From: Parvularculaceae bacterium
Lineage (GTDB): Bacteria > Pseudomonadota > Alphaproteobacteria > Caulobacterales > Parvularculaceae
NCBI GenBank assembly: GCA_021776435.1
Contig: JAJFFW010000084.1
Location: forward strand, 1-51,032
Direction: 5' to 3'
Length of the DNA: 51,032 nucleotides
The translations under genes were made by a program, and so were the position numbers. Of this stretch, positions 2,486-24,167 are shown piece by piece (within the stretch, counting starts at the first letter, position 1; every line of letters starts with the position of its first letter). The notes beneath the pieces are model-generated. The model made no database searches, was not told the DNA's origin, and saw only the letters and a program-made list of their open reading frames with translations.

Positions 2486-2495
2486 AGGAACGCCC

Positions 2496-3978: not shown

Positions 3979-3993
3979 CATGAGGAGACTGCC

Positions 3994-7787: not shown

Positions 7788-7802
7788 AGGGAGAGGAAGG
7801 CG

Positions 7803-10875: not shown

Positions 10876-12209
10876 TGGCCTCGATGCGTAACGATGACCG
10901 TTCGGTTTCCGATCCGCCTGACGTCAACGCGCCGAAGATCGATCCGGAAGAGTTGACCCTGCGCGCCAAACCGCGCCCTGTCACGCGGATCAACCGCCGT
11001 GTGCTGATGTTGCTATCCGGTACCGGACTTCTTCTGATATTCGGCGCCACTATCTTTGCGCTCGACCCACCGAACCTGTTCGATCGCGATAGGGCCGGGA
11101 CAGAACTTTACAATGTCGACAACAAACCAACGCCTGAAGGACTGGAAAGCCTGCCGCGCCGATATAGCGACCTGCCCAAGCCCGTTCCAGAACTTGGGGC
11201 CCCGCTGCCAGGTGACCTTGGTGGCGCCGTTCTCGATGTGGAACGCGATCTCGGCATTGCCGCTCCGCCGAACCTGCCGTTCCGTCCGAACCCGGAAGAA
11301 GACGCCGCCCGCGCCGAACGCATCCGGCAAGCGCGCATCGCGAGCCAAGCAAATGAATCGGGTGTTTTCTTTCCGCTCACCACAAAAAATGCCGCTGCAC
11401 CAAGCCCCGGCGTTGGTCCTGGCGGACAGAGCCAGAAGCCGGTGAATTCATCTCTTAACTCCAGTGAGATCAACCGAAACCCCTTCGATGTGACACGCGC
11501 CGGTGATGCGAATGGGCCGTTGGAGCTTGATCTTCAGAACGATCAAAACCTGCAAGGGCGCAAGCTCGACTTCCTGAACTCATCTGTCGATGACAAAATC
11601 TACAGTCCGCACAAACTGCAAGACCCGGCCTCACCCTATCAGATGATGGCGGGCACGATCATTTCCGCAAGCCTTGTCACCGGCATCAATTCCGATCTGC
11701 CGGGCTGGATCATCGCTCAGGTTACGGAGAATATCTACGACACCGTCACCGGGCGGTATCTGTTGATCCCCCAAGGCGCCCGGATGATCGGCACCTATGA
11801 CAGCCTTGTCGCCTTCGGACAGGAACGCGCACTTGTCGTCTGGCAGCGGATCATCATGCCCGATGGCTCGTCGGTCGTGATTGACAATCTGCCGGCGACC
11901 GATACCGCTGGATATGCCGGACTCGAAGATCAGGTAAATTTCCACACCTGGCGGCTTTTGAAGGGCATCGCGCTCTCGACACTTCTTGGGGTTTCCACCG
12001 AACTGACCTTCAGCGGCCAGGAAAGCGATCTCGTCAAGGCGATCCGCGAGTCGACGCAAAACAGCGTCAATCAGGTCGGCCAACGCCTTACCGAACGCAA
12101 CCTCAACATCCAGCCCACCATCACCATTCGCCCCGGATGGCCGCTGCGCATCATCGTCCATTCAGACCTGGTTTTGCGGCCCTATGGCGGACAAGGAGAT
12201 AGACCATGA
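10875..12209 (+). CDS. trbI: Conjugal transfer protein TrbI (VirB10 family)
   Basis: The core channel protein that spans inner membrane to outer membrane, 444 residues. A short cytosolic tail leads into one membrane helix (about residues 38-58, VLMLLSGTGLLLIFGATIF). A long proline-rich periplasmic linker follows to about 240, and then the conserved VirB10/TrbI beta-barrel domain with MMAGTIISASLVTGINSDLPG, LLIPQGARMIGTYDS and the C-terminal IRPGWPLRIIVHSDLVL. These blocks are diagnostic. It is the last structural gene of the transfer apparatus. Confidence 0.96.
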   Translation: MASMRNDDRSVSDPPDVNAPKIDPEELTLRAKPRPVTRINRRVLMLLSGTGLLLIFGATIFALDPPNLFDRDRAGTELYNVDNKPTPEGLESLPRRYSDLPKPVPELGAPLPGDLGGAVLDVERDLGIAAPPNLPFRPNPEEDAARAERIRQARIASQANESGVFFPLTTKNAAAPSPGVGPGGQSQKPVNSSLNSSEINRNPFDVTRAGDANGPLELDLQNDQNLQGRKLDFLNSSVDDKIYSPHKLQDPASPYQMMAGTIISASLVTGINSDLPGWIIAQVTENIYDTVTGRYLLIPQGARMIGTYDSLVAFGQERALVVWQRIIMPDGSSVVIDNLPATDTAGYAGLEDQVNFHTWRLLKGIALSTLLGVSTELTFSGQESDLVKAIRESTQNSVNQVGQRLTERNLNIQPTITIRPGWPLRIIVHSDLVLRPYGGQGDRP

Positions 12210-12463
12210 CCCTCAAACTTGGGCAACTTCCAGACCGTAACGCCGTGAAGATCAGCTTCACAGCCAGCCCTGAACTCAAATCGGCCCTTGGCGATTACGC
12301 TGAAATCTATTCGCGCACCTACGGTCAAAAGGAAGGCGTCGCCGAACTTATTCCGTTCATGCTGGAAGCGTTCCTCGACGCCGATCACGGCTTCAAGCGC
12401 GCGCGAAAGAAACTCGAAGAAACGCGTACACCGATATCATCAACCCAAACGAAGGAGACCTGA
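12206..12463 (+). CDS. DUF2274 protein of the trb operon
   Basis: A small cytosolic protein of 85 residues, overlapping trbI by 4 bases. The sequence (LKLGQLPDRNAVKISFTAS, then ALGDYAEIYSRTYGQKEGVAELIPFMLEAFLDAD) matches the DUF2274 family as I know it, which sits directly after trbI in many alpha- and gammaproteobacterial integrative elements. The predicted strand-helix-helix layout resembles a ribbon-helix-helix DNA-binding fold. A regulator or partitioning helper is possible, but no function is established. Confidence 0.85.
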   Translation: MTLKLGQLPDRNAVKISFTASPELKSALGDYAEIYSRTYGQKEGVAELIPFMLEAFLDADHGFKRARKKLEETRTPISSTQTKET

Positions 12464-12466
12464 ATT

Positions 12467-12775
12467 ATGGCCACGATTGGAAGTTTCACTGCCGGAAAAG
12501 ATGGATATATCGGAACGATCCGGACCCTGACGGTTAACGTCAAAGCGAAGATTGTCGCCAATGACAACAAGAAAAGCGAGGCCGCGCCGGATTTTCGCAT
12601 CTACGCCGGACGCGCCGAACTCGGAGCCGCCTGGAAAGCGCAAACCAATGGCGACGAGCCGCGAGACTATCTCAGCGTCCTGCTCGACGACCCGAGTTTC
12701 CCCGAACCCATCCGCGCGGCCCTGTTTGAAGAGGATGGAGCCGCGTATCTGGTCTGGAACCGGCGGGAGACCTAA
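12467..12775 (+). CDS. DUF736 protein
   Basis: A small cytosolic protein, 102 residues, starting 3 bases after the DUF2274 stop. Motifs ATIGSFT, GYIGTIRTLT, APDFRIYAG, ELGAAWK and YLSVLLDDPSFPEPI are the DUF736 signature. DUF736 genes are common cargo or accessory genes on alphaproteobacterial plasmids and ICEs, often near transfer or replication genes. The biochemical role is unknown. It is likely the last gene of the transfer operon, because the spacing and codon texture change after it. Confidence 0.9.
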   Translation: MATIGSFTAGKDGYIGTIRTLTVNVKAKIVANDNKKSEAAPDFRIYAGRAELGAAWKAQTNGDEPRDYLSVLLDDPSFPEPIRAALFEEDGAAYLVWNRRET

Positions 12776-12781
12776 TCACCC

Positions 12782-13030
12782 ATGTTGCGTGATCGTTCGA
12801 GTTCTTGTTCGCAGAGTAGCAATGGTAGTGAACCTGCTGCTAAGCGGAAATACTCGAACGAGTTGATCGTTGAAACACGGAAGGTTTGGGAAGGAAGGCT
12901 CGGGCGCTGTCTAACGGATGAAGAAGCGCAAGAGTTGATCGAAAATATCACCGGTTTCTTCCGGACTCTCCATGGCTGGAAACGAAGGGAAATACGCGAT
13001 AAAGGCGGAAACAGCCGTGAAAATGATTGA
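12782..13030 (+). CDS. Small hypothetical protein of the element
   Basis: An open frame of 82 residues. The first 20 residues are Ser-rich and low complexity. The core (SNELIVETRKVWEGRLGRCLTD... EEAQELIENITGFF) resembles a small conserved protein often found beside recombinases and transfer genes in Alphaproteobacteria, with an acidic helix followed by a terminal basic stretch. The true start is uncertain. I cannot assign a function. It lies between the transfer operon and the toxin-antitoxin pair. Confidence 0.55.
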   Translation: MLRDRSSSCSQSSNGSEPAAKRKYSNELIVETRKVWEGRLGRCLTDEEAQELIENITGFFRTLHGWKRREIRDKGGNSREND

Positions 13031-13084
13031 AAAGTGGAGAAGAATATGAGATCATTGAGATCATATATCTCGATGGAGCGGCCT

Positions 13085-13324
13085 ATGTCCGGAAATTTGC
13101 ATGTACGAAATCTCGATGACGACCTCATCATCCGCCTGAAACGGCGCGCTGCTCAGCATGGGAGATCGACAGAGGCGGAACACCGGGAAATTTTGCGGCA
13201 GGCGCTTTCCGCCGAGGTCGAACCTGCGTTCCAGGAACTTGCCGCAAAACTTCGCCAATTGACCAAAGAGCGCAAGCACACACCCTCGGAAGAGCTTATG
13301 CGCGAAGGGCGGAGCGAGCGGTGA
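13085..13324 (+). CDS. FitA-type ribbon-helix-helix antitoxin
   Basis: A 79-residue antitoxin. I start it at ATG 13085 because GGAGCGG lies just upstream, and because this puts the conserved strand (GNLHVRNLDDDLIIRLKRR) at the N-terminus; an upstream frame at 13034 would add an unrelated extension. The RHH fold (strand, then helices including RSTEAEHREILRQAL) is that of FitA/Phd-like VapB antitoxins. The C-terminal half should wrap the toxin. It overlaps the toxin gene by 4 bases, and such pairs usually repress their own promoter. Confidence 0.85.
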   Translation: MSGNLHVRNLDDDLIIRLKRRAAQHGRSTEAEHREILRQALSAEVEPAFQELAAKLRQLTKERKHTPSEELMREGRSER

Positions 13325-13773
13325 GCCATTTTGTCATTGATGCAAGCGTTGCTATCAAATGGATAGTGGAAGAAGAGGGCACGGTTGAAGCCCTCGCCAT
13401 TCTCGAAAAAGCTAAATTATCCGCACCAGACCTTTTGATTGCGGAATGCGCCAATATCCTCTGGAAAAAAGTGCGGCGGGAAGAACTATCAGAAGACGAA
13501 GCCCAGATCGGTGCGCGCCTTCTCGAACAGGCCGACATCGAAATTCTTCCGACACGGCACTTGCTTGGTTCGGCAACCAGTCTCGCAGTTGAACTGGATC
13601 ATCCTGCCTATGACTGCATCTACCTGGCGCTTACTATAGAGCGCGATTGGCAATTTGCGACCGCCGACGAGCGCTTTCAACGCAGAGTCCGGGAAGATCA
13701 AACCAGACAATATTCGAGTATTGTGCTAACTCTACCGGAGGCTGCGGCTGCGCTGAGCAAAGGTGGGTCGTAA
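13321..13773 (+). CDS. vapC: VapC/FitB-type PIN-domain toxin
   Basis: A PIN-domain endoribonuclease toxin of 150 residues with a GTG start overlapping the antitoxin. The acidic active-site framework is visible: VIDASVAIKW (Asp near 7), LIAECANILWK (Glu near 42), DHPAYDCIYLALTIE (Asp near 97) and TADERF (Asp near 116). These residues coordinate Mg2+ in VapC toxins, which cut tRNA or rRNA. Its position at the border of the transfer region suggests a stabilising role for the element (inference). The start codon and coupling imply low, antitoxin-dependent translation. Confidence 0.88.
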   Translation: MSHFVIDASVAIKWIVEEEGTVEALAILEKAKLSAPDLLIAECANILWKKVRREELSEDEAQIGARLLEQADIEILPTRHLLGSATSLAVELDHPAYDCIYLALTIERDWQFATADERFQRRVREDQTRQYSSIVLTLPEAAAALSKGGS

Positions 13774-13806
13774 GTTCAAAACCGCTAAAACTTAGGAGCA
13801 GCAATC

Positions 13807-15390
13807 ATGGCCCGGCGCGACTCTTCAAGAGCAATAAAAATAGCGAATGAAGTGCGGCGTGGTGTCTTATATGCGCGCGTTTCTTCCAAAGAGCAGGAGC
13901 GTGAAGGGTTTTCAATTCCTGCCCAATTGAAATTGCTGCGCGATTATGCGGCGGCACAAAATGTCACGATTGTCGAAGAATATGTCGACGTGGAGACGGC
14001 GAAGCAAAGCGGTCGCGTCAATTTCGAAAAGATGGTCAAGTATCTCCGCCGTCATTCGACGGTGCGCATACTTCTCGTCGAAAAAACGGATCGCCTCTAT
14101 CGAAACCTGAAAGATTGGGTGACGGTTGATGAACTTGATGCGGAAATTCATTTCGCGAAGGAAGGCACAGTTCTGTCTCGGAACTCGCGTTCATCTGAAA
14201 AATTCATGCACGGCATTAAGGTGCTGATGGCGAAGAATTATATCGACAATCTCTCGGAAGAAACGCGCAAGGGAATGCTTGAGAAAGCCGAGCAGGGCAT
14301 TTGGCCGACAGTGGCTCCCCTTGGCTACTTGAACGTCATGGGACCGAACGGCAAAAAGATCATAGAAGCCGACTCTGAATTGGGGCCGATCATCACTCAA
14401 ATGTTCGAGTGGTATGCGTCAGGACGATATTCGCTAAAGGAGTTGGGGCGAAAAGCCAAAGGCGCCGGGCTCGTGTTTCGGAAAAGCCGGCAGGCCGTCC
14501 CAATCAGCACAATTCACAAGATCCTTCGCAACCGTCTCTACACGGGTAATTTCGAGTGGCTGGGTAAGCGTTACAAGGGGAGCCATGATCCGCTGACTTC
14601 ACCGGAGTTATGGGAGCGCGTCCAGGGCGTGATGGACGGGCGTCATACCAGCAAGCTTCGCGGATCGACCCATAATTTCGCTTTTTCCGGCCTTATCAAA
14701 TGCGGGCATTGCGGCTGTGCAGTTGTCGGTGAAGTCAAAAAACAGAAATATATCTACTATCACTGCACCGGATTTAAGGGGAAGTGCGGCGAGCCTTACG
14801 CCCGTGAAGAGGTGGTTGAAGAGCAGTTTGCCCATTTATTGAAACAGCTTCGCTTTGACGACGACGTGTTCAACTGGATTCGTAAGGCGCTGAGAGAGAG
14901 CTTTGATGACGAGAGGCAGGAGAACGCCGAAGCGATAAAACGGCTGATCAAGGAGCGGGATCGGCTCCAGCAACGCATCGAGGCCATCTATATCGACAAG
15001 GTCGACGGCAAGATCGACGACGAGTTCCATGATCGAATGCGTGACGAATGGCGCGACGAGCAGGAGCGGTGTCTGAGGGGCATTGAACGTTGTCAGACCG
15101 CAGACGATTCATACATGGATGAAGGTGTCGGTTTACTCGAACTCGCGAAGGATGCGCACCGGCTTTTCGAAAAACAGTCGGCTGGAGAGAAGTCAAGACT
15201 GCTCAATTTCGTACTTTCGAACTGCTCTTGGAAGCATGGAAAACTAACCGCAGAATTCAAACAACCCTTTGATTTATTAGCGGAAACAACTGCCATCGCG
15301 GCGCAAGCAAAAACGGCCGGAATGCATGATTCCGACCGTTTTGAAAAATGGCTCCCCGGGCCGGACTCGAACCAGCGACAAAGCGGTTAA
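13807..15390 (+). CDS. Large serine recombinase with tRNA-derived C-terminus
   Basis: A site-specific serine recombinase of 527 residues. The N-terminal resolvase domain has YARVSSKEQ with catalytic Ser26. The recombinase domain follows (IDNLSEETRKGMLEKAEQGIWP), then a zinc ribbon (CGHCGC ... CTGFKGKCGE) and a charged coiled-coil region at about residues 345-440. RBS AGGAGCAGC precedes ATG 13807. The last 14 codons (WLPGPDSNQRQSG and stop) are the antisense of a tRNA-Asn 3' end, and the codons before them cover a rho-independent terminator facing the other way. The native end has therefore been replaced or fused at the insertion point. It may be the integrase of the upstream ICE. Activity is uncertain because the tail lies beyond the known domains. 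Confidence 0.88.
   Translation: MARRDSSRAIKIANEVRRGVLYARVSSKEQEREGFSIPAQLKLLRDYAAAQNVTIVEEYVDVETAKQSGRVNFEKMVKYLRRHSTVRILLVEKTDRLYRNLKDWVTVDELDAEIHFAKEGTVLSRNSRSSEKFMHGIKVLMAKNYIDNLSEETRKGMLEKAEQGIWPTVAPLGYLNVMGPNGKKIIEADSELGPIITQMFEWYASGRYSLKELGRKAKGAGLVFRKSRQAVPISTIHKILRNRLYTGNFEWLGKRYKGSHDPLTSPELWERVQGVMDGRHTSKLRGSTHNFAFSGLIKCGHCGCAVVGEVKKQKYIYYHCTGFKGKCGEPYAREEVVEEQFAHLLKQLRFDDDVFNWIRKALRESFDDERQENAEAIKRLIKERDRLQQRIEAIYIDKVDGKIDDEFHDRMRDEWRDEQERCLRGIERCQTADDSYMDEGVGLLELAKDAHRLFEKQSAGEKSRLLNFVLSNCSWKHGKLTAEFKQPFDLLAETTAIAAQAKTAGMHDSDRFEKWLPGPDSNQRQSG
15308..15341 (-). terminator. Former tRNA-Asn terminator, now inside the recombinase 3' end
   Basis: An 11-bp stem (15313-15323 with 15329-15339) has a 5-base loop. 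Read on the minus strand it has one G-U pair and is followed by TTTTT. It sits 8 bases past the tRNA-Asn 3' remnant at 15349-15393, the right place for the tRNA terminator before the island inserted. It overlaps coding sequence of the serine recombinase. Confidence 0.7.
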
Positions 15391-15393
15391 CAG
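15349..15393. repeat. Left attachment site of the island (tRNA-Asn 3' fragment)
   Basis: 45 bases identical to 24092-24136. It covers the CCA end, acceptor strand, T arm and variable loop to the anticodon loop of tRNA-Asn in antisense. It lacks the 5' half, so it is not a functional tRNA. The stop codon of the serine recombinase (TAA, 15388-15390) lies within it, in the anticodon-loop sequence. Confidence 0.93.
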
Positions 15394-15449
15394 GCTGAAA
15401 TTGACGAAAATCTATGAATTTTTGTGAAACGCTGTGAAGTCATAAATCA

Positions 15450-15479
15450 TTGACCTATAGGGGAAATTAAGACTAATGT
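15450..15479 (+). promoter_or_regulatory. Candidate integrase promoter
   Basis: TTGACC at 15450-15455 and TAATGT at 15474-15479 are separated by 18 bases, a plausible sigma70-type pair about 100 bases upstream of the integrase start. It lies between the attachment core and the arm-type repeat, so integrase binding at the arm could repress it (inference). Confidence 0.35.
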
Positions 15480-15514
15480 TCCTTTCATAAGATTGCTCGA
15501 TGGTGCATCAAGTT

Positions 15515-15542
15515 TCGTTTTTGGGGTACCCCGGCGGTACCT
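15515..15542. repeat. Left 28-bp direct repeat, likely integrase arm site
   Basis: 28 bases identical to 24006-24033. It contains the palindrome ggggtacccc and a second ggtacc half. It lies 121 bases inside the left core repeat. Paired identical repeats just inside both ends are what arm-type integrase or excisionase binding sites look like; function is inferred. Confidence 0.75.
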
Positions 15543-15581
15543 TTGGGCGAATGAGCGAGCAAGCGGGAAAAGGAAAGAATC

Positions 15582-16886
15582 ATGCCGAAGGCGTCTTTGA
15601 CCGCGCGATTTGTCGAGTCAATCCGGCCGGGTGAGGGGCGTACGGATTATTGGGATTCGGACACGCTCGGCCTGTGCCTGCGGGTGACGCGCAACGGCGT
15701 TAAAACTTGGTGGATCAAATATCGTGTGGGAGGCGGGCGCGGCGGGCGCCAGCGCGTCTTTCGGTTGGGGCGGTTTCCGGACCTTGCCCTTGCCGACGCC
15801 CGCATGCGCGCGCGCCGGCTGTTTGTGGAAATTGGCGACGGCGGCGATCCGGCCGCCGACCGCGACGCCAGGCGCTCAGGCGACGACGTGACGGCGTTCG
15901 CGGGCCGGTGGATCGCCAGCTTGCGCGACAAGGGCCGGAAATCGGCCGATGCGTGGGAGGTTATGCTAAAGCGTGACGTGCTGCCCCAGATAGGCCGGAT
16001 GAAGCCGGCGGAGGTGAAGCGCGCGCATATCCGCGAGATTGTGGATCGCATGAAGAAGCGCGGCGCGACGATTCAGGTGAACAGGGTTTTTGAGGTAGTG
16101 CGGGCGCTTTTTCGCTGGATTGGCCGAGAATATGATGACGTGATTACGGCTGATCCCAGTTTTGGGATGCAAAAGCCATTCGACGAATGCCCGCGTGAGC
16201 GGCTGATAACGGACGCGGAATTGCGGACGTTGTGGACGGCGCTGGAATCGGTTCGGGAGGTCAATGGCCGCTCGCGCGGCGGCAAGGCTTTCGCTGCGAT
16301 GAAGCCGTTGGTGACGGAGCCTGTGCGGCTGGTGATCGGGCTATTGATGTTGACCGGCCAGCGATCAAGTGAGGTTGGCGAGGCGCGCGTTGCGGAGTTC
16401 GATCTTGAGGAGGGCGTTTGGCGCATCCCGGCCGGCCGGACAAAAGCCAAGCGCGGGCAAGAGGTCCCATTATCCGCCCCCGCAAGCGCTCTTGTCGAAA
16501 AGGCAATAGAGCTTGGCGGCGGCTCGGAGTGGCTTTTCCCGGCCGCGTTCAAGACCAAAGGCGGCAAGGGCGGGCCGATTTTTCACACGGCGGCCAACCA
16601 CGCATTCAAGCGCGCGGCGGCGGCGGCCGGCGTTAAAGACGTACGCATTCACGATCTTCGCCGGCTTGTCGCTTCGGGCGTCGCCCGGCTCGGCTTCGGC
16701 GATGATGTGATTGCAGCGATCCTCAACCATGCGCCGCGCGGCGTCACGGCGCGGCATTACAACCGGCATCGATACCAAGTTGAGAAGCGCCGGGCGCTCG
16801 ACGCCTGGGCGGCGCATGTCGAAGCCGTGATTGAAGGCCGGGCGGCGTCCGGGAACGTTGTTTCATTGCATTCTGGAGGGGCGTGA
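15582..16886 (+). CDS. int: P4-type tyrosine integrase (DUF4102 N-terminus)
   Basis: The 434-residue integrase inserts and excises the island at tRNA-Asn. The N-terminal arm-binding domain is of the DUF4102 type (about residues 1-95, with DTLGLCLRVTRNGVKTWW and FRLGRFPDLALADARMRA). A SAM-like core-binding domain (about 100-190) and the catalytic domain follow. Catalytic residues visible are Arg261 (TGQRSSEV), a Lys in GRTKAKRGQEVPL, His357 and Arg360 (HDLRR), His383 (NHAPRG) and Tyr393 (ARHYNRH). All are present, so it should be active. It lies 188 bases from the left core. RBS GGAAAAGGAAAG precedes ATG 15582. Confidence 0.96.
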   Translation: MPKASLTARFVESIRPGEGRTDYWDSDTLGLCLRVTRNGVKTWWIKYRVGGGRGGRQRVFRLGRFPDLALADARMRARRLFVEIGDGGDPAADRDARRSGDDVTAFAGRWIASLRDKGRKSADAWEVMLKRDVLPQIGRMKPAEVKRAHIREIVDRMKKRGATIQVNRVFEVVRALFRWIGREYDDVITADPSFGMQKPFDECPRERLITDAELRTLWTALESVREVNGRSRGGKAFAAMKPLVTEPVRLVIGLLMLTGQRSSEVGEARVAEFDLEEGVWRIPAGRTKAKRGQEVPLSAPASALVEKAIELGGGSEWLFPAAFKTKGGKGGPIFHTAANHAFKRAAAAAGVKDVRIHDLRRLVASGVARLGFGDDVIAAILNHAPRGVTARHYNRHRYQVEKRRALDAWAAHVEAVIEGRAASGNVVSLHSGGA

Positions 16887-17509
16887 TGGCGAAGTGGGAA
16901 AGACACACGGCGCTGGCTGAGCGAATCAAGCTTGCATGCGAAGGCTCTCTTTCGGATGATGAGGACGCGCGCTTGTTGGCGGCTTTTTACGCAATATGCC
17001 CGGCGGTCGGACATTTTGAGTCTGTGGACTGTCTTATTGGCGTTTTAAGGCGCGGCGAGCTTGTGCCTCGTTTGCAAAAGGTGCTGGCCGAAGCGCTCGA
17101 TCCGAACGGCAAGTCGCATATGTATTTTAAGCGACAGTATCGGCAGAGAGGCGGCGCAAAAAAAATTGCATCTTTGTGTCCCGATACATCGATTGATCAA
17201 TTTGTAGAAAACGAGCTCGCTGAGCACCCTGAATCCGTTGAAGCTGCGGTCATGGCGGCGATGCAAGAGTTTGGCGTCAGCCGCTCAACAGTAATGGCGG
17301 CGCGTAAACACTCGCCCAGTATACAGAAGATTGTTCGGAACCTCGCTATATCGATAGCCGCACGGGCGCCCATATTGCAAGATGAGCTGGCGCAGCCCGA
17401 GTGGGCCAGCGAGACATTGAAAAAACTCACGCTTGGCGACCTAGCGCGCGTCGAAGCCGGGGAAATCAGCCGGGACGAATTAATAAAAGAACTCAAGCGT
17501 AGAGGCTGA
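16886..17509 (+). CDS. Unknown protein downstream of the integrase
   Basis: A 207-residue protein I do not recognise. ATG 16886 overlaps the integrase stop by one base and has RBS GGAGGGG, so it is coupled to int; the in-frame GTG one codon upstream is less likely. No signal peptide or membrane segment is seen. It is mostly helical, with SDDEDARLLAAFYAICPAVGHF near the N-terminus and VSRSTVMAARKHSPS near residue 130, which looks like a helix-turn-helix-like or helical pair. The C-terminus (LGDLARVEAGEISRDELIKELKRRG) is charged. A role in excision, immunity or regulation is possible by position only. Confidence 0.8.
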   Translation: MAKWERHTALAERIKLACEGSLSDDEDARLLAAFYAICPAVGHFESVDCLIGVLRRGELVPRLQKVLAEALDPNGKSHMYFKRQYRQRGGAKKIASLCPDTSIDQFVENELAEHPESVEAAVMAAMQEFGVSRSTVMAARKHSPSIQKIVRNLAISIAARAPILQDELAQPEWASETLKKLTLGDLARVEAGEISRDELIKELKRRG

Positions 17510-17568
17510 GTCCAGCTATAACGCGCTTATTACTGGACCCGTTTCTGTTTGATTTGATTGAAAACATG

Positions 17569-17608
17569 TGAATATTCATGCGTCACCGAAGCTTTTCAAA
17601 AGGTGACG
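17569..17608 (+). promoter_or_regulatory. Palindrome and SD-covering inverted repeat before alpA
   Basis: A perfect 10-bp palindrome, tgaatattca, lies at 17569-17578. A 7-bp inverted repeat, cgtcacc (17581-17587) and ggtgacg (17602-17608), follows with a 14-base loop. The right arm contains the Shine-Dalgarno sequence of alpA. In RNA this hairpin could hide the RBS; in DNA either repeat could be an operator for AlpA. Confidence 0.4.
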
Positions 17609-17609
17609 T

Positions 17610-17810
17610 ATGAACACGAATATCAGCCCGGCGCCGATCATCAACCGTCGCGAGGTGTGCGGATTTTTGAACGTCAGTGACACCACGCTTTGGCGCATGG
17701 TCCGCGCTGGACGCTTCCCGAAACCAGTCAAAATTTCAGAGCGCAGAATCGGCTGGCCGAAAGACCAGATTGAGGCTTGGCTTGAAGTAAAGCGCGCGGA
17801 GGCGGCGTGA
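17610..17810 (+). CDS. alpA: AlpA-family excisionase/transcription regulator
   Basis: A 66-residue winged helix-turn-helix protein of the AlpA/MerR-like phage regulator group. The pattern INRREVCGFLNVSDTTLWRMVRAG then FPKPVKISERRIGWPKDQIEAWL is diagnostic. In P4-like elements and PICIs, AlpA homologues activate element genes or promote excision. The RBS AGGTGACG precedes ATG 17610 and is part of an inverted repeat. It probably starts the replication/morphogenesis transcription unit of the island; which promoter it controls is not shown by the sequence. Confidence 0.92.
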   Translation: MNTNISPAPIINRREVCGFLNVSDTTLWRMVRAGRFPKPVKISERRIGWPKDQIEAWLEVKRAEAA

Positions 17811-17813
17811 ATC

Positions 17814-18212
17814 ATGCAAGTACAAACAAAGGCGCCGCCGCTTGGTGAGAGCGGCGTGCGCGGTGGTTTTGCTGGCTGGCGGGATCATCAGAATAATAAT
17901 CAATTTGTAGCTGAAACGCAAGCCGCGCGTGACGGCCCGGCGGCGGAGTCGGTCACAAAAACGAAAATCAGAAATTGGTCTGAAACCGCCCGGCCCGGCG
18001 ACGCGCTGCAGGCGATTTTAAACCCGATTTTCGCGGTGCGGCCGAGCGCGGCGCCAATCGGCCCGAGGGCGCAGATATTCTTGAGCGCCTTGCTCGGCGT
18101 CGCCGACGCGGTTTTCGTGCAGTTGTTCGGCACGCGGATCGTTATAATGACAGAGCAAAACTTTTATGCGCTGCTCGGCCTTCGCGATGGGGGGCTGCAT
18201 GAAAAACGCTGA
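17814..18212 (+). CDS. Unknown protein between alpA and the DUF3631 gene
   Basis: A 132-residue open frame starting 3 bases after the alpA stop and overlapping the next gene by 14 bases. I do not recognise it. The N-terminal half is polar and rich in Gly, Ala and Asn. The C-terminal half has a hydrophobic stretch (AQIFLSALLGVADAVFVQLFG) that could be a membrane or core helix. No conserved motif is apparent. The compact placement supports a real gene, but the start could be further downstream. Confidence 0.6.
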   Translation: MQVQTKAPPLGESGVRGGFAGWRDHQNNNQFVAETQAARDGPAAESVTKTKIRNWSETARPGDALQAILNPIFAVRPSAAPIGPRAQIFLSALLGVADAVFVQLFGTRIVIMTEQNFYALLGLRDGGLHEKR

Positions 18213-19542
18213 TCCGCTGACGGATGAACGCGATCCGCTTGCGCCCGAGGCTGGCGACCCGGCGGAATTGCTCGATGATGTCAGCGATTTTCTCGGGCGG
18301 TTTATCGCCTATCCGTCACCTGAGACCAAGATTGCGCATGTGCTCTGGATCGCTCATTGCCACACGATGGACGCCTGGGAATCGACGCCACGTCTTGCTT
18401 TCCTTTCGCCTGAGCCGGCGAGCGGAAAAACGCGCGCGCTGGAAATCACTGAATTGCTGGTTCCGCGTCCGGTTGAGGCCGTCAACGTCACGCCCGCCTA
18501 TTTGTTCAGAAAGGTTGGCGGCGAGGACGGCCCGCCGACAATTTTATTTGACGAAATCGACACGGTGTTCGGCCCGAAGGCAAAAGATAACGAGGAAATC
18601 CGTGGCCTGATGAATGCCGGACACCGGCGCGGCGCCGTCGCCGGGCGATGCGTTATGCGCGGCAAGATTGTCGAGACGGAAGAAATCCCCGCCTATTGCG
18701 CGCTCGCGATTGCCGGCCTCGGAGATTTGCCGGACACGATCCTGACGCGGAGCATTATCATAAAAATGCAACGCCGCAAGCCGGGAGAATTCGTCCAACC
18801 GTACAGGCGGCGGGTTCATGCGAACGCTGGGCACGTGCTGCGCGACCGGCTCGAAGCCTGGGCGATGACCGCAGCCCCTGAATTGAAAGACGCCTGGCCG
18901 CAAATGCCTCACGGCCTTGAAGATCGTAACGCAGATGTGTGGGAGCCGCTGCTCGCGATTGCTGACTCCGCGCGCGGCGAGTGGCCGGAAAAGGCGCGTG
19001 TTGCGGCTGTTTCGCTTGTTTTGCTTTCCGCACAGGAGCCCCCAAGCCTCGGAATCCGGCTCCTCAGCGATCTAAAGAAGGTCTTTTTGGATGGTCACGC
19101 CCTATCAACTGAAGCCATACTTGACCAGCTTACCGGGTTAGACGAGTCCCCGTGGGGCGACCTTCGCGGGAAGCCCTTAACGGATCGCGGATTGGCCGCC
19201 CGGCTGCGACCTTACAAGGTTAAACCAAAAACCCTGAGAATTGGTGACAAAACGCCGCGCGGATATGAGCGCGCTGATTTTGCGGAAGCGTGGGAGCGCT
19301 ACACCCCCACACCCTCCGCAGAAAGCAAAACAACTAAAACAAGCGAAACAAACAGCGCGCTTCCTAGCCAGAATGTTTCGCTTCGCTCCGCTGCCGATCC
19401 AAAACATCAACACCTATCCGAAACATCAATCCCGCACAATTCCTCGCCTGTTTCGGATGTTTTAGATGTTTTGCCTTTCACAGCGAGGCAGGGCGCTTGC
19501 CCAAGCTGCGCCGGCGAAGGCTGCCGTTGGTGCTCGTCATGA
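18199..19542 (+). CDS. DUF3631 P-loop ATPase with C-terminal zinc knuckle
   Basis: A 447-residue protein. Walker A (PEPASGKTRAL) lies at residues 71-79 and Walker B (TILFDEIDTVFG) near 114-124. Motifs NEEIRGLMNAGHRRGA and RSIIIKMQRRKPGE follow; these are the DUF3631 blocks seen in primase/helicase-associated proteins of phages and satellites. A Ser/Thr-rich linker from about residue 380 leads to a terminal Cys cluster (Cys434, 437, 442, 445), likely binding zinc. It is probably the replication ATPase/helicase-like protein of the island, as no other replication gene is present (inference). I start it at ATG 18199 with a G-rich RBS; ATG 18187 or 18166 are alternatives. Confidence 0.85.
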   Translation: MKNADPLTDERDPLAPEAGDPAELLDDVSDFLGRFIAYPSPETKIAHVLWIAHCHTMDAWESTPRLAFLSPEPASGKTRALEITELLVPRPVEAVNVTPAYLFRKVGGEDGPPTILFDEIDTVFGPKAKDNEEIRGLMNAGHRRGAVAGRCVMRGKIVETEEIPAYCALAIAGLGDLPDTILTRSIIIKMQRRKPGEFVQPYRRRVHANAGHVLRDRLEAWAMTAAPELKDAWPQMPHGLEDRNADVWEPLLAIADSARGEWPEKARVAAVSLVLLSAQEPPSLGIRLLSDLKKVFLDGHALSTEAILDQLTGLDESPWGDLRGKPLTDRGLAARLRPYKVKPKTLRIGDKTPRGYERADFAEAWERYTPTPSAESKTTKTSETNSALPSQNVSLRSAADPKHQHLSETSIPHNSSPVSDVLDVLPFTARQGACPSCAGEGCRWCSS

Positions 19543-19802
19543 CCGATAACGATCAAAACGGCCGGCCCGCAAGCCTCGAAGAGCAAAAAGCCAAGGTTCG
19601 GACAATCCTGGAGCGCAATGTCGCCCGCTTGCTCGATCATCGCCTGCACCCCGCGGCGATAGGCGATGCGCATCTAGCCGTCGGGATCGTCATGGCGCTG
19701 ATCACTGTTTCGCGGGCCGATGTCGCGCGAAGCTTGCGATCGATTGCGGATGAGCTCGAAAACGAGTCCGGCCCGTTCGCGCCCAAAGGCGGGATCAATT
19801 AA
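19539..19802 (+). CDS. Small hypothetical protein of the island
   Basis: An 87-residue protein with an ATGA overlap to the previous gene. It is predicted helical, with an acidic/Gln N-terminus and a central HPAAIGDAHLAVGIVMALITV hydrophobic helix, then SRADVARSLRSIADELENE. Family not recognised. Tight coupling at both ends (one-base overlap with the next gene) supports it as real. A partner of the DUF3631 ATPase or a regulator is possible by position only. Confidence 0.65.
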   Translation: MTDNDQNGRPASLEEQKAKVRTILERNVARLLDHRLHPAAIGDAHLAVGIVMALITVSRADVARSLRSIADELENESGPFAPKGGIN

Positions 19803-20077
19803 TGTCGAGCGAGGCAAAATGCTCTTTTTGCGGGCTGAGTTTTCGTGCGTTGACGAATAAGCTCTATTGCACGCCCGCCTGCAAGAAGGCAGCGGAGCGC
19901 GAGCGCGCAAAACTGCGGAAGCTCACCAGACGCCAGCCGCAGCTCCGGCGCTTCGAGGACGCCGCATTGGCGCGCGGAAACTGGCCGCTGGTGCGCTGGT
20001 GCCGCGCCAGGCAAGAACGCGACCGCGCCGAGATAGAGGCTATTTCCCTAAAATATCTTGCAAAATCAGTAGGCTGA
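19802..20077 (+). CDS. Small zinc-ribbon protein
   Basis: A 91-residue basic protein starting in the stop of the previous gene (TAATG). Cys7, Cys10, Cys23 and Cys27 form a CxxC-x12-CxxxC zinc-binding site (CSFCGLSF ... YCTPACKKAAERERA), followed by an Arg/Lys-rich helix. The arrangement resembles small treble-clef or zinc-ribbon DNA-binding proteins common in phages. It could bind the 12-bp repeats immediately downstream, but that is speculation. The stop lies at the first base of that repeat array. Confidence 0.75.
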   Translation: MSSEAKCSFCGLSFRALTNKLYCTPACKKAAERERAKLRKLTRRQPQLRRFEDAALARGNWPLVRWCRARQERDRAEIEAISLKYLAKSVG

Positions 20078-20112
20078 ACGCCCCGCAAAGCGTCCTGCAA
20101 AACGCCCCGCAA
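20077..20112 (+). repeat. Three tandem 12-bp repeats before the capsid gene
   Basis: Three head-to-tail units: aacgccccgcaa (20077-20088), agcgtcctgcaa (20089-20100, three mismatches) and aacgccccgcaa (20101-20112). The outer two are identical. They fill the start of the gap between the zinc-ribbon gene and the capsid gene. They resemble iterons, or a protein-binding array such as an origin, late operator or packaging site. Confidence 0.75.
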
Positions 20113-20163
20113 GTTATCCAAAGAATCGTTATGTTCGGTCCGAAATTATTGAAGGAAATCGAC

Positions 20164-21429
20164 ATGCAAAAGAAGTTAGAACGCAAAGATCAGCAGTACA
20201 CGGACGAAAATGGCGCCGGCGGTGGCGGCTTGTCGCAGGAAGCACGCGAAGCGCTCAGCGGAATCAAGGAATCATTCGACAAACTGAAATCGCGAAATCT
20301 TGAACTCGATACGATCATTCAAAAAGAAAAAGAAGAACGCGAGGGGCTTGAGTTGCGCATGAACAAGCGCGGGCTTGTTGCGCCTAGCGCCCCCGGCGAA
20401 GCCCCGGATGAATTCTTGTGCACAAAAGACGGGCGAAAACTGCCGCTTTTGAAAAAAGATCAACCCTTCGCTGCCCATGTCTCAGGCGACAGCGCGCCCG
20501 AGCATGACTTCAAATTTGGCGATTTTTGCCGAATGGCCATCGGCGGCGCGCGCAACGATCAGGAGAGAAAAGCCCTCGGCCAGCTCAGCGACCCGGGCGG
20601 CGGCTTCCTGGTTTCGCCGTTTTTGAGCGGCGAATTTATCGATTTGCTCCGTCCCCGGAGCGTTGCCTTCGAAGCGGGCGCCCGCACCCTGCCCATGCCC
20701 ACAGGCGAGGTCAATATCGCGCGGCTCGACAACGATCCCGTGGTCGCGTGGAGGCAGGAAAACGCGCTTGTCGCGACAGGCGATCCCAGCTTCGGCCAGC
20801 AACCTTTGATCGCGCGCTCTCTCGCCTGTTTAATCAAAGTGAGTCGCGAGCTTGCCGATGACGCGGCGAATGCCGGACAAATCATCCAGGACGCGCTGGC
20901 CGCCGCCATGGCCGCCGAAATCGACCGCGCGGTGATTCACGGCGACGGAATCACCGAACCGCTTGGATTGCTGAACACTGGCGGCCTCTCGGTCGTCTCG
21001 ATGGGAACGAATGGCGGGCAGATCACAAACTATGACAAATTGCTAGACGGCATTGAAAGTTTGGAAAACTCAAATGTCGGGGCGCCGACAGCCGCGATCC
21101 TGTCGCCGAGAACGAAGAGGGCCTTTAGCGGCTTGAAAGACACGACAAACCAGCCGCTCAGAAAGCCGAATGACGTTGAGGGCCTGCCATTTTTGCACAC
21201 ATCCTCAATGCCGAACAATTTGGTTCAGGGAAGCGCCAACAACGCGAGCTCAATCATCGTCGGCGACTTCTCGCGAATGATCGTCGGCGTGCGGAGCGAA
21301 GTCAGAATTGAAGTTCTGCACGAAGCCTTCGCGGACCGGTTGCAGATCGGCCTGCTCGCGCATGCCAGAATCGCGGTCACCACGACGCATGCGAAAGCCT
21401 TCGTCGCGATCAAAGGGATCACGCCATAA
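20164..21429 (+). CDS. HK97-type phage major capsid protein
   Basis: The major head protein, 421 residues from ATG 20164 (RBS GAAGGAAATC); ATG 20131 would add 11 residues. Residues 1-80 form a charged coiled coil (SFDKLKSRNLELDTIIQKEK), the delta/scaffolding domain usually removed by a phage protease. The HK97-fold body follows with DPGGGFLVSPFLSGEFIDLL, WRQENALVATGDPSFGQ, ELADDAANAGQIIQDALAAA and HGDGITEPLGLLNTGG. The C-terminal block (GVRSEVRIEVLHEAF ... AFVAIKGI) is typical. No protease, portal or scaffold gene is present, so maturation would need helper functions. The sequence looks intact. Confidence 0.94.
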   Translation: MQKKLERKDQQYTDENGAGGGGLSQEAREALSGIKESFDKLKSRNLELDTIIQKEKEEREGLELRMNKRGLVAPSAPGEAPDEFLCTKDGRKLPLLKKDQPFAAHVSGDSAPEHDFKFGDFCRMAIGGARNDQERKALGQLSDPGGGFLVSPFLSGEFIDLLRPRSVAFEAGARTLPMPTGEVNIARLDNDPVVAWRQENALVATGDPSFGQQPLIARSLACLIKVSRELADDAANAGQIIQDALAAAMAAEIDRAVIHGDGITEPLGLLNTGGLSVVSMGTNGGQITNYDKLLDGIESLENSNVGAPTAAILSPRTKRAFSGLKDTTNQPLRKPNDVEGLPFLHTSSMPNNLVQGSANNASSIIVGDFSRMIVGVRSEVRIEVLHEAFADRLQIGLLAHARIAVTTTHAKAFVAIKGITP

Positions 21430-21436
21430 AAACCAC

Positions 21437-21510
21437 GCGCGCTGCCTGCATCCCGCCAGCGCGCGAAATGGCGGCCCAGCGCGGGATTTTTAGGACGTTC
21501 CGCGCTGGGC
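21437..21510 (+). other. Two strong hairpins between capsid and tape-measure genes
   Basis: Hairpin 1 pairs 21437-21444 with 21457-21464 (8 bp, 12-base loop). Hairpin 2 pairs 21474-21484 with 21500-21510 (11 bp, GC-rich, 15-base loop). Neither is followed by a clear U-run on the plus strand, so an intrinsic terminator is not certain. They may be RNA-processing, stability or attenuation structures that set the capsid to tape-measure ratio, or a protein-binding DNA site. Confidence 0.5.
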
Positions 21511-21545
21511 TTGCCTAACTGAAAACTGAAAAAGGAATTGTGATC

Positions 21546-23363
21546 ATGGCGAAAAACCCAGTTGCGAATATCGGTGTCGATCTGACCGCGAAGATCGCCG
21601 GTTTCGAAGCAAACATGACCAAGGCGACCCGTTCGCTTTCCGCCAATCAAAAGAAAATGAACCGTTCGCTTTCGCGGATCGAGGGCGGCTTCAAGAAGCT
21701 TGGCGCATCGATTGGCGCGTTTGCTGGCGTCGCCGGCGTCGGACTCGCGGTCCGGGGGCTGAACAATATCTTCGAGCGCGCCATCGACGCCGGCGACGAA
21801 ATCGGCAAGGCAGCCAAGACCGCGGGAATCGGCGCGGAGGCCCTGCAAGAATATCGCTTCGCCGCGATGCAGGCCGGATCGTCGCAAAAAGAACTCGACG
21901 ACGCCGTGGGCCGGTTTACGCGCCGGCTGGGCGAGGCGCGGCGCGGCAATCAAGAATACGCAAAGACCTTTAAAGAGCTTGGCGTGCAAGCCAGCGACAC
22001 AACCGAGCAAGCGATTGAAAAAGCCTTCAAAGCGCTCGGGGATGTTAAAGACATCACAATCCGCACATCGCTGGCGACAAAGGTGTTCGGCGATGACGCG
22101 CGCCGCATGGCGCTTTTGGTTGCTGACGGCGCCGACGCGCTAGAGGCGACAAAAAAACAGGCTCGCGACATGGGCGCCGTGATCAATGAAAAAACCATTC
22201 CGGCGCTGGAAAAAGCAAAAGACAAAATCTCGATCATGAATGCCGCGCTTGAGACTCAACTGACAAACGCCGTCGCTGATAATATCGAAGCCTTCACGAC
22301 ATTCAAAGGAGCGATTAATAATGTGGAAATTGCGCTTGTCAAAGCCAGCGCCGCCGCAATCAATTTCTTCGACGCAAAAGATTTTACACAAACGACTGTC
22401 ATTGAAGAGCGGCTGCAGAGCGAACGGAAAAATCTTTCAGAGTTGCAGGACCTGTTAAAGCGCACTCAATCCAGTGGTGGGCTCGCAACGATTGGAAAAG
22501 ATAGCCGAACGAAAAGACTGCAAAAGGACATAGCGGAAGCTAAAGACCTCATCAATCGGCTTGAGCGAGCCCAATCAGACGTTCAGTTCAAAAACATAAA
22601 TGACTCATTAAATCGTCCGCAGCAAAGCGAGCCCATCGTGCCGCCGCCGCCTGATTTCAGCGGGATAAAGATACCAAACGCGCCGACGTTAAAACTCGAC
22701 GCCTTCGCCAAAAGAGCCGAGACGGCCGGCGAGAAAATACGCGCCGCCTTCGAACAAACCCGGACGCCGCTTGAGGCGCTTTCGATTCAGTTGAAGGAGA
22801 TCGAGGCGCTGAGGCCGTTCGCTCAAACGCCCGAAGAACTCGACGCGCTTGGCCGCGCGGCAGATGATGTACGTGATCAAATGAAAGAGCTGAACCAGGC
22901 GACCAGTGAGTGGAAGCTTGTCAGCCAGGACGCCGCGCGCGGCATATCGGACGCGTTTGCGGACGCAATCATATTCGGCGATAAGCTCGGACAAAGCCTC
23001 AAGAGGCTTGCGCAACAACTCTCATCGCGGCTGATCTCAAATCTATTGTTCAGCGCCGCGACGGATGCGTTTCCATTCCTTAACAGCAAAGCCGGCGGCG
23101 GACGCATCCAGCCCAACATTCCCACTCTTGTCGGCGAGCGAGGTCCTGAGCTTATCGTTCCCCAGAGAGCCGCGACCGTGATCAACAATGCCGACTCGCG
23201 TGGCCTTGGAAGAGCACCCACGATCAACATCAGCATAACCAACACACCGAACTTCGCCGGCAATGCGGCGACCTTCGAAGACCTCAGGTTAATGGGGCAG
23301 ATCACCAAACAGGCGGCGATTGATGGCACGATGCAAGCGCTGCGACGACCGAAGTTTGCATAA
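21546..23363 (+). CDS. Phage tail tape-measure protein
   Basis: A tail length ruler and DNA-ejection protein, 605 residues from ATG 21546 (RBS AAAGGAAT). The N-terminal coiled coil (about residues 15-55) leads to a glycine-rich hydrophobic helix (about 56-75), an ALQEYRFAAMQAGSSQ block as in phage tail-length proteins, long helical repeats to about 480, and then the diagnostic C-terminal motif VGERGPELIVPQRAATVINN. It is short for a tape measure. Using about 0.15 nm per residue, it would set a tail of roughly 90 nm. It stands alone, without tail tube, sheath, chaperone or baseplate genes. Confidence 0.9.
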   Translation: MAKNPVANIGVDLTAKIAGFEANMTKATRSLSANQKKMNRSLSRIEGGFKKLGASIGAFAGVAGVGLAVRGLNNIFERAIDAGDEIGKAAKTAGIGAEALQEYRFAAMQAGSSQKELDDAVGRFTRRLGEARRGNQEYAKTFKELGVQASDTTEQAIEKAFKALGDVKDITIRTSLATKVFGDDARRMALLVADGADALEATKKQARDMGAVINEKTIPALEKAKDKISIMNAALETQLTNAVADNIEAFTTFKGAINNVEIALVKASAAAINFFDAKDFTQTTVIEERLQSERKNLSELQDLLKRTQSSGGLATIGKDSRTKRLQKDIAEAKDLINRLERAQSDVQFKNINDSLNRPQQSEPIVPPPPDFSGIKIPNAPTLKLDAFAKRAETAGEKIRAAFEQTRTPLEALSIQLKEIEALRPFAQTPEELDALGRAADDVRDQMKELNQATSEWKLVSQDAARGISDAFADAIIFGDKLGQSLKRLAQQLSSRLISNLLFSAATDAFPFLNSKAGGGRIQPNIPTLVGERGPELIVPQRAATVINNADSRGLGRAPTINISITNTPNFAGNAATFEDLRLMGQITKQAAIDGTMQALRRPKFA

Positions 23364-23465
23364 GGGAGGGGGGGGTAAATGTCTGTGGTCGTGAATTACT
23401 AGACCGGCGTGTGACAATGAATCTTTTCCGCAGACGAATTAGAATTCTAGAAGGTTGAAATTGCT

Positions 23466-23897
23466 ATGAAACCTGGACGAAAAGCCCTTCCCGCTGAGAT
23501 AAAACGCGCCCACGGCACATGGCGGCGCGACCGGGACGGCGACAAGATAGCGCTCACGCCCGCCGATAGCCCGCCCCTGACGCCCGACGGCCTGAGCGCC
23601 CGCGCCCTGGACATTTGGGAGCAGAATTTAGGCCGCGTCATGGCGGCTGGCGTCGGCGAGGCCGATAGCGATCTGTTCGCCACCTACTGCGAACTGCAGG
23701 GCGCCGTGCGCGCCGCCTGGAGGATGGGCGAGGCCCCACCTATCTCTGCGCTCGCCGAATTGCGCCGGCTCGCAGAGCTCCTGGGCTTGGCCGGCCCGAG
23801 AAGCCGTGTTGCGCGGGCCGCGACGCATAAAGACAACCCGTTTGCGCGGCTGCATGAAAAACAAAACCAGTCCGAGAAGGACGAGACCGACCGCTGA
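23466..23897 (+). CDS. Phage terminase small subunit, P27 family
   Basis: A 143-residue protein beginning with the P27 signature (KPGRKALPAEIKRAHGTWRRDR), then SPPLTPDGLSARALDIWEQNLGRVMAAGVGEADSDLFATYC, a helical core and a charged tail. Small terminases recognise the packaging site and load the large subunit. No large subunit follows; the gene is the last of the island. A lone TerS is the classic device by which satellites redirect a helper's packaging motor. The gap of 102 bases before it contains an 8-G run and no other gene. Confidence 0.93.
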   Translation: MKPGRKALPAEIKRAHGTWRRDRDGDKIALTPADSPPLTPDGLSARALDIWEQNLGRVMAAGVGEADSDLFATYCELQGAVRAAWRMGEAPPISALAELRRLAELLGLAGPRSRVARAATHKDNPFARLHEKQNQSEKDETDR

Positions 23898-23930
23898 TCA
23901 TATCCCTAGCAGAATATGCTAATTATCACC

Positions 23931-23958
23931 TCGTTTTAGGTTCCCCGGCAGGTTCCCC
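23931..23958. repeat. Degenerate third copy of the arm-type repeat
   Basis: Starts tcgtttt like the 28-bp repeats and continues with aggttccccggcaggttcc, where they have ggggtaccccggcggtacc. It lies 47 bases left of the right perfect copy, after the TerS stop. A weaker integrase or excisionase site is the likely reading. Confidence 0.5.
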
Positions 23959-23980
23959 AAATTTGCCCACCTACGACTGT

Positions 23981-24001
23981 CCCGCCCATGCGGGGTTTTT
24001 T
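23981..24001 (+). terminator. Rho-independent terminator at the end of the island operon
   Basis: Stem cccgc (23981-23985) with gcggg (23990-23994), loop ccat, then G and six T. It lies 84 bases after the TerS stop and would end plus-strand transcription of the morphogenesis genes before the tRNA. Confidence 0.7.
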
Positions 24002-24005
24002 GTTA

Positions 24006-24033
24006 TCGTTTTTGGGGTACCCCGGCGGTACCT
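24006..24033. repeat. Right 28-bp direct repeat, likely integrase arm site
   Basis: Identical to 15515-15542. It lies 58 bases inside the right core repeat. In the circular form the order would be right arm, 58 bases, core, 121 bases, left arm, the layout of a classic attP with two arms. Confidence 0.75.
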
Positions 24034-24051
24034 CAGGCCTTTTTAAAGGAA

Positions 24052-24083
24052 AAGGGCTTAGAGATTTTTACCTCTAAGCCCTT
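24052..24083 (-). terminator. tRNA-Asn terminator supplied by the island
   Basis: A perfect 12-bp stem (24052-24063 with 24072-24083) with an 8-base loop. Read leftward from tRNA-Asn it ends in a T-rich stretch (24052 down to about 24040). It replaces the older terminator now stranded at 15308-15341, so the island restores both the tRNA 3' end and its terminator. Confidence 0.75.
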
Positions 24084-24091
24084 GTTTTAAT

Positions 24092-24136
24092 TGGCTCCCC
24101 GGGCCGGACTCGAACCAGCGACAAAGCGGTTAACAG
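24092..24136. repeat. Right attachment site of the island
   Basis: 45 bases inside the 3' half of the intact tRNA-Asn, identical to 15349-15393. Integration here rebuilds a complete tRNA, as is usual for tRNA-targeting tyrosine integrases. Confidence 0.93.
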
Positions 24137-24167
24137 CCGCTTGCTCTACCAACTGAGCTACCGGGGA
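24092..24167 (-). tRNA. tRNA-Asn (anticodon GTT)
   Basis: 76 bases including an encoded CCA (complement of 24092-24094). The acceptor stem TCCCCGG pairs with CCGGGGA, the discriminator is G, and the T arm has GGTTCGAGTCC. The anticodon loop CTGTTAA lies in stem GCGG/CCGC, giving anticodon GTT. It is the integration target of the island. A TATATC-like -10 element lies at 24188-24193 on the minus strand, with no convincing -35. Confidence 0.95.

Follow-up and report, generated by a model that had tools for sequence, protein, structure and literature searches.

A tRNA-bounded island of a Parvularculaceae bacterium, probably a phage satellite with its own capsid, tape measure and small terminase genes

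What is an integrated element to do with a head shell, a tail ruler and a packaging-choice protein of its own, when no portal, no packaging motor and no tail tube are recognised beside them? The question is raised by 51,032 nucleotides of a Parvularculaceae bacterium (assembly GCA_021776435.1, contig JAJFFW010000084.1; this whole stretch is the window in what follows), where a complete island of 8.74 kb, at 15346-24136, is bounded by direct repeats of 48 bp and encodes an HK97-type major capsid protein, a tail tape measure protein (TMP) and a short P27-type small terminase subunit (TerS). We read this island as an integrated phage satellite, a relative of the capsid-forming satellites, which would supply the head shell, the tail ruler and the choice of the DNA to be packaged, and would depend on a siphophage helper for portal, motor and tail; going by its genes, we give this reading a probability of about 60%.

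The left, tRNA-distal repeat (15346-15393) agrees with the right one (24089-24136) at 47 of 48 positions, and the latter overlaps the 3' end of a tRNA-Asn gene (gtt; 24092-24167, reverse strand; ARAGORN), the integration target; a single other site of the window, in tRNA-Cys, agrees with the repeat at 28 or more of its 48 positions, namely at 28. Between these ends, on the forward strand, the capsid gene (20131-21429, with a start at 20131 or 20164) is matched by PF05065 (2e-39) and TIGR01554 (5e-45), its product having an N-terminal delta-like region; the TMP gene (21540-23363, 605-607 residues) is matched by phrog_9483 (8e-25) and by no Pfam tail family; the TerS gene (23466-23897) is matched by phrog_83 (5e-7), over residues 1-78 only. 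Ribosome-binding-site-like sequence makes 20164 and 21546 the more likely starts of the first two. A first-pass annotation of the window had described a complete tRNA island of about 8.7 kb with these three genes and with no portal, large terminase subunit (TerL) or protease, and this description stands: the repeats and profiles bear out the former, and neither portal, TerL, head protease and connector nor tail tube, tip and tail chaperone families found a match among the island's open reading frames in Pfam, PHROGs or NCBIfam (Pfam and PHROGs were run on nine frames, PHROGs also on a tenth, 19497-19802, and NCBIfam on nine, without AlpA).

TerS is the weakest gene assignment of the island. 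A profile built without the window frame, from four frames that each lie directly upstream of TerL (in the phage loci L048 and L049 and in L208 and L209, which resemble capsid-forming phage-inducible chromosomal islands, cf-PICIs), matches it at an E-value of 4e-5, second in rank of 946 frames from six loci, and among these matches only the window frame and its counterpart in another island, L057; since the four had first been found with a profile seeded by the window frame, the independent evidence is their position alone. The TerS proteins of the islands (window; L057:10577-10969; L208:5427-5828; L209:5646-6068) count 130-143 residues, against 197-198 in two aligned phages, and a middle segment of about 30 residues is absent from those of the window and of L057.

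Is this composition an accident of one genome? Five further islands pair capsid and TMP genes with neither portal nor TerL recognised, PHROGs having been applied to 6, 6, 7, 3 and 7 frames of L047, L057, L011, L059 and L112, respectively, and local profiles to the other frames. L047, from a metagenome-assembled genome of Marinicaulis (genus Hyphococcus, Parvularculaceae, Alphaproteobacteria), holds a 10.0-kb island with a protease-capsid fusion and a TMP, in the same tRNA-Asn as that of the window, between 17-bp repeats with 16 identical positions; L057 (9.6 kb, tRNA-Ser, 14-bp repeats, all 14 identical) has capsid, TMP and a TerS matched by phrog_83 at 2e-12; L011 (11.0 kb, tRNA-Trp, 23-bp repeats, 22 identical) has capsid and TMP, as has L059, for whose ends neither repeat nor tRNA was found; L112, with a protease-capsid fusion and a TMP, runs into the contig edge, so that a portal could lie beyond it. 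In the four islands with both ends, window included, the repeats sit at the 3' end of a tRNA gene and the sizes span 8.7-11.0 kb, the 14- and 17-bp repeats of L057 and L047 being modest evidence on their own. In all six islands, capsid and TMP lie on one strand, 110-1230 nt apart (110, 138, 150, 875 and 1230 nt in the five measured by profiles, 245 nt by hand in L112). Both genes were seen by local profiles in 64 of 167 sequences, window included; the gap is 697 nt in the cf-PICI-like L099, which has TerL and portal, and 1871-9190 nt in the other 58 loci, which include near-duplicates and partial contigs.

The first-pass annotation had proposed a search for the ordered set integrase, AlpA, DUF3631, capsid, TMP and TerS. 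It exists in the window and was found there alone; order, integrase and replication gene differ in the other islands. The same annotation had named a full prophage at this locus in a relative as the find that would reduce the island to a deletion derivative. In L047 the chromosome flanking the same tRNA-Asn is collinear with that on its right in the window (a resistance-nodulation-division, RND, pump and tRNA-Cys), and the tRNA is occupied by a different capsid and TMP island, the two integrases giving no blastp alignment at 1e-3.

The TMP search that led to most of these islands covered 299 genomes of the same order and gave 43 matches in 39 genomes at E ≤ 1e-5. Seventeen are frames of 127-220 residues, probably TMPs of gene transfer agents (GTAs). 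The 26 of at least 450 residues, with neighbourhoods judged by local profiles and partly gene by gene, comprise four capsid and TMP islands (window, L047, L057, L059), 15 phage- or prophage-like loci with TerL or portal, five left without class, L054 (with TerL and portal as well as protease, capsid and TMP, and without an integrase in view) and L055 (integrase and TMP, no capsid recognised, ending at a contig edge). A capsid search of this sample matched seven of the 299 genomes, its own included, and added L011; a TMP-profile search matched 34 of 62 genomes of the family (28 of the 40 match rows being short frames) and added L112. At the level of the class, 38 of 385 genomes match the TMP; 22 of the 39 non-window matches were fetched, the long ones in G543 and G455 being unread, and yielded the cf-PICI-like L099 with its TMP as well as L095 and L101, with integrase and TMP and no capsid by local profiles. 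In L095:9359-11826, L101:8071-10520 and L055:9624-11950, a similar-looking protein of 210-221 residues stands directly after the TMP, with no Pfam match for the one scanned. We kept out of the island count L053, L056, L063, L199 and L205, in which a long TMP stands without a recognised integrase and with neither TerL nor portal in view, L111 and L079, which have integrase and TMP but for which capsid, TerL and portal were not recognised, and the contractile-tail-like L107 and L070; the small match loci L016-L045, L064, L065, L085-L092, L206 and L207 were not sorted into classes individually.

Viral collections were searched as well. Capsid scans of IMG/VR and of the genome collection with the single window sequence confirmed no relative. 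With the TMP alignment, the best 80 of 124 IMG/VR loci, many of them short or partial by local profiles, included none that combines integrase, capsid and TMP while having neither TerL nor portal; four have integrase and TMP and no capsid (L160, L162, L179, L182), and among the three of these that were read, L160, L162 and L179, the last two have a gene that is, we presume, akin to a contractile sheath. Among cultured phages, 93 records match the window TMP, all below 60% identity, the 15 listed standing at 24-29%.

Where did the two structural genes come from? In a tree of 36 rows, the window capsid and four others form a clade with support of 95/96, and each of the five comes from a tRNA island: the other four are L009, where portal, protease and TerL are present, L010, with a portal, L012, with the capsid alone, and L011, which also has a TMP. 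Its neighbour is a clade in which eleven capsids are cf-PICI-like and two rows, labelled phage, come from viral contigs with no TerL or portal in view. In both capsid trees the combination of capsid and TMP, present in four rows, requires four changes, L057 being a long branch of unsure position; the capsids of L047 and L112, as protease-capsid fusions (phrog_4523), lie outside the tree, and the capsids of the six islands are thereby spread over four branches of one tree plus the protease-fused type. A search with the profile of the window capsid family gave 18 matches in 16 of 263 genomes: setting aside one unread fragment, 13 of 17 members have protease and portal (TerL being recognised in six of these), one has portal alone, two have a TMP without portal and one has neither. 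Among the related loci, L012:1014-11108 is a capsid-only island at tRNA-Thr, with 47-bp repeats and with genes that we take to resemble a CD-NTase and an E2-like protein, and L014:6229-8664 is a cf-PICI-like island at tRNA-Val with what are presumably genes of a DNA methyltransferase and a Vsr endonuclease. In small plasmids of Clostridioides difficile (NC_008226.2 and others, many of 7.7-8.3 kb) a gene is annotated as phage major capsid, its product being about 26% identical to the window capsid; these plasmids are possibly satellites in plasmid form.

The TMP tells a different history. Those of the window and L047 are sisters (100/99), beside four phage TMPs, of which L046 and L048 are from genomes of the same host family and L119 and L192 from viral contigs; those of L057 and L059 are likewise sisters (100/100), beside L051, a phage of their host family, and the viral contig L169; that of L112 is not among the rows of the tree. 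Capsid and TMP trees disagree, and we may therefore consider that the two genes travel separately. At E ≤ 0.01, blastn aligns the island with L046 and L119 in the ends of the TMP alone (21546-21697 and 22748-23350), and with L048 at 21573-21757 plus 29 nt inside the TMP; the middle (21779-22135) matches L047 at 74%. As it reads, the window TMP is a mosaic, with ends of the type found in Marinicaulis phages and a middle like that of the satellite L047. It is by its ends, here the phage-like parts, that a TMP is expected to contact its partners in the tail, and the mosaic would fit selection for a match with local helpers. Tail shortening as the purpose is not supported: the satellite TMPs are not clearly shorter than their nearest phage counterparts (607 and 606 residues against 575-630 in L048, L046 and L119; 752 and 742 against 658 and 629 in L051 and L169), so that a shorter tail is not an obvious benefit.

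How would the island then move? A siphophage helper of the Marinicaulis type (L046, L048; viral contig L119) would infect the cell, upon which AlpA and the integrase would excise the island as a circle, to be replicated by the DUF3631 module. By analogy with precedents in Vibrio cholerae satellites and in the Ccm protein of SaPIbov5, to which we return, the satellite capsid would form heads on the helper portal, to be matured by the helper protease, the satellite TerS would steer the helper TerL to satellite DNA, and the satellite TMP would enter a tail made of helper tube, terminator and tip, so that the virion would be a chimera. In this way both size rulers and the protein that chooses the cargo would be the satellite's own, and the parts between them borrowed; TMP ends that resemble those of local siphophages would fit the helper's tail partners. 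L046 and L119 give a picture of such a helper, with portal, protease, capsid, adaptor, tube, a TMP of 628-630 residues and tip, TerL being in view in L046.

Several findings weigh against this reading. Nothing in the bacterium's own genome (98.58% complete, 142 contigs) matches PF03354 or the TerL and tip of L046, other phage types not having been searched for, and its PF04860 matches are confined to a GTA cluster, so that a helper of the L046 type would have to come from outside. TerS is recognised in two of the six islands only, and a fold search with that of the window gave no match at E ≤ 0.001; the AlphaFold model of the capsid, with a mean confidence (pLDDT) of 53, is too poor for use. 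No tail chaperone gene was found beside the window TMP, unlike the situation in the Vibrio satellites. The L011 TMP breaks the same-family pattern, being of another kind that matches two of 299 genomes at E ≤ 1e-10, its own and that of a phage of a different family, at 25% identity. Portal and protease are kept in 13 of the 17 capsid-family members, which makes the capsid and TMP composition a minority. Finally, the ratio of nonsynonymous to synonymous change (dN/dS) in the TMP against L047 is 0.69 over residues 1-75 and 0.26 over 425-607, and against L046 it is 0.28 over 76-160 and 0.54 over 161-255, synonymous change being saturated in the other stretches.

One alternative is that the island is a decaying cf-PICI or prophage which has lost portal, protease and TerL and keeps its remaining structural genes as functionless leftovers. 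The nearest capsid relative, L009, has all three, and most of the capsid family has portal and protease, so that losses are likely to have occurred somewhere; no helper was found in the genome; and several TMP stretches evolve at the ratios just given, near saturation as they are. Against this, the same pair is found, and the same genes are missing, in six islands whose capsids fall on five branches or more. In the phages L048 and L049, TerS precedes TerL, portal and capsid, and a single deletion would not yield the island's order of capsid, TMP and TerS; the disagreement of the two trees makes the TMP look acquired, not left over. Frames and attachment repeats are intact, which the first-pass annotation had already held against simple decay. 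It had also proposed that relaxed selection, with dN/dS near 1, would speak for decay. We computed the ratio for the TMP and for the host RND gene as control: residues 76-160 against L047 give pN 0.17, pS 0.69 and dN/dS of about 0.10, the control giving about 0.08. As the other stretches with a ratio are 26-36% identical and near saturation, weight can be placed on this best-aligned one alone; it argues, weakly, against free decay. Taken together, we hold decay to be unlikely.

A further alternative, which also seems to us unlikely, is that capsid and TMP are decoys that poison the assembly of helper virions and shield the host population, whether or not the island is also mobilised. There are satellites that divert the assembly of capsids (Ccm) or stop that of tails (Rta; Tai, PMC11364771). 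Phage-like TMP ends could moreover form mixed tails; however, the full set of attachment sites, integrase, AlpA and replication genes, with TerS, points to mobilisation, and in the Vibrio satellites transfer depends on the TMP, Rta being another protein. That the helper would be the host's own GTA, with TerL, portal and protease on contig C46, is very improbable: the genome does carry GTA-type TerL, portal, protease and capsid (L015), and the C-terminal part of the window TMP is matched by TMPs of about 180 residues in relatives, which probably belong to GTAs, but phage TMPs share this C-terminal similarity, the window capsid is not close to the GTA capsid, and GTA packaging is largely sequence-independent, which leaves no obvious use for a TerS.

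The other genes of the island also lie on the forward strand, and all its frames are open. A tyrosine integrase of 434 residues (15582-16886; PF00589 1e-22, PF13356 4e-17) is overlapped at its stop by the gene of a 208-residue protein (16883-17509; no family above the curated cut-off), and is followed by an AlpA-like regulator or excisionase (17610-17810; PF05930 5e-9, phrog_66 2e-13), a doubtful gene of 132 codons (17814-18212; no family match), a DUF3631 protein (18166-19542; PF12307 3e-59) that is probably a replication ATPase or helicase, a frame of 101 codons (19497-19802; no match) and a 91-residue protein (19802-20077; phrog_13750 5e-5), possibly HNH-like by a weak hint (phrog_1271 HNH, 3e-3). 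PADLOC returned a match to the AlpA domain alone. Integrase, AlpA-type regulator, DUF3631 as presumed replication module and specific attachment site make up the broad set of phage-inducible chromosomal islands. Two identical 28-bp repeats on the forward strand (15515-15542 and 24006-24033) are candidate arm-type sites of the integrase; in the excised circle they would flank the attachment core, as such sites do. Their 11-bp core motif, with one mismatch allowed, was found 3 times against 1.72 expected, with no enrichment over shuffles.

From 443 to 15390 the window holds a conjugative element (TraG-type coupling protein, T2SSE-type ATPase, TraG/VirB4-type ATPase, TrbL, TrbI), then a PIN-domain gene and a serine recombinase (13807-15390), whose last codons read through the left attachment repeat; with conjugative element and satellite in tandem, the tRNA-Asn is a hot spot. 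A serine recombinase 72% identical over 359 residues lies at L112:8379-10004, and as L112 is a capsid-fusion and TMP locus, this type of recombinase may serve satellites too.

Beyond the single island, we tentatively propose, with somewhat less than even confidence, a convergent class of satellites that replace the measuring parts of the virion alone (shell protein, tail ruler, sometimes TerS), take portal, motor, connectors and tube from the helper, recombine their TMP ends with those of resident siphophages, which would keep the ruler adapted to the local helper, and exchange their capsid independently. If this is true, satellites would own the virion parts that set size and cargo, and not those that join modules; the assembly of chimeric tails would extend from the contractile-tailed helpers of Vibrio to siphophage-type elements in Alphaproteobacteria; features of the helper could be predicted from the sequence of its satellite's TMP; and assembly studies would have natural exchanges of head and tail rulers to work with.

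What is new in this, as compared with known systems? The first-pass annotation had suggested an undescribed class. As far as literature searches show, capsid and TMP, with or without TerS, in the absence of portal and TerL are new, as are the repeated occurrence and the phage-like TMP ends, and among the matches listed we found no alphaproteobacterial satellite of this composition in the literature; a satellite TMP as such is not new, and the window capsid stands beside a cf-PICI-like clade. A Pseudomonas satellite is treated in PMC4936722. The closest likeness is with the phage-inducible chromosomal island-like elements (PLEs) of Vibrio cholerae, whose chimeric tails with satellite TMP were published in March 2026 (PMC12987554): the TMP of PLE11 enters chimeric tails about 10 nm shorter than those of the phage, and deletion of tmp from PLE1, PLE4 or PLE11 lowers transfer by 96 to 99.9%, the tails being otherwise made mostly of helper parts. 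The same source (legend of its Extended Data Fig. 10) notes putative tmp genes in PLE-like elements and in some cf-PICIs. PLEs, in that account, have a tail chaperone gene, and some also a hub gene, with tmp, and use helper capsid proteins; the window island has satellite capsid and TerS, no chaperone found, a TMP of siphophage type and an unrelated host. With cf-PICIs it shares small size, integration, integrase, AlpA and an HK97 capsid of a neighbouring clade; from the set that PMC10690885 gives for their heads and packaging (capsid, protease, portal, connectors, TerS, TerL, HNH), it has TerS and a weak hint of HNH, protease, portal, connectors and TerL not being found. The Ccm protein of SaPIbov5, according to PMC8569155, is likewise a satellite homologue of a capsid protein that works with helper parts; it builds small heads together with the helper's capsid protein and portal, and was found cleaved. 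Ccm, however, is homologous to the helper capsid and co-assembles with it, and no TMP accompanies it in that description, whereas no phage capsid in the capsid tree stands close to that of the window. Nearer at hand, L054 and L099 resemble the islands in that their head genes form a compact set, capsid and TMP are present, and neither tail tube nor tip was recognised, but both carry TerL and portal; L054 has a capsid-TMP gap of 4966 nt and L099 no attachment repeat that could be found. We can therefore understand the satellite type, as read from these genes, as real and recurrent; its kind is known already, and what is new is the combination and the apparent convergence.

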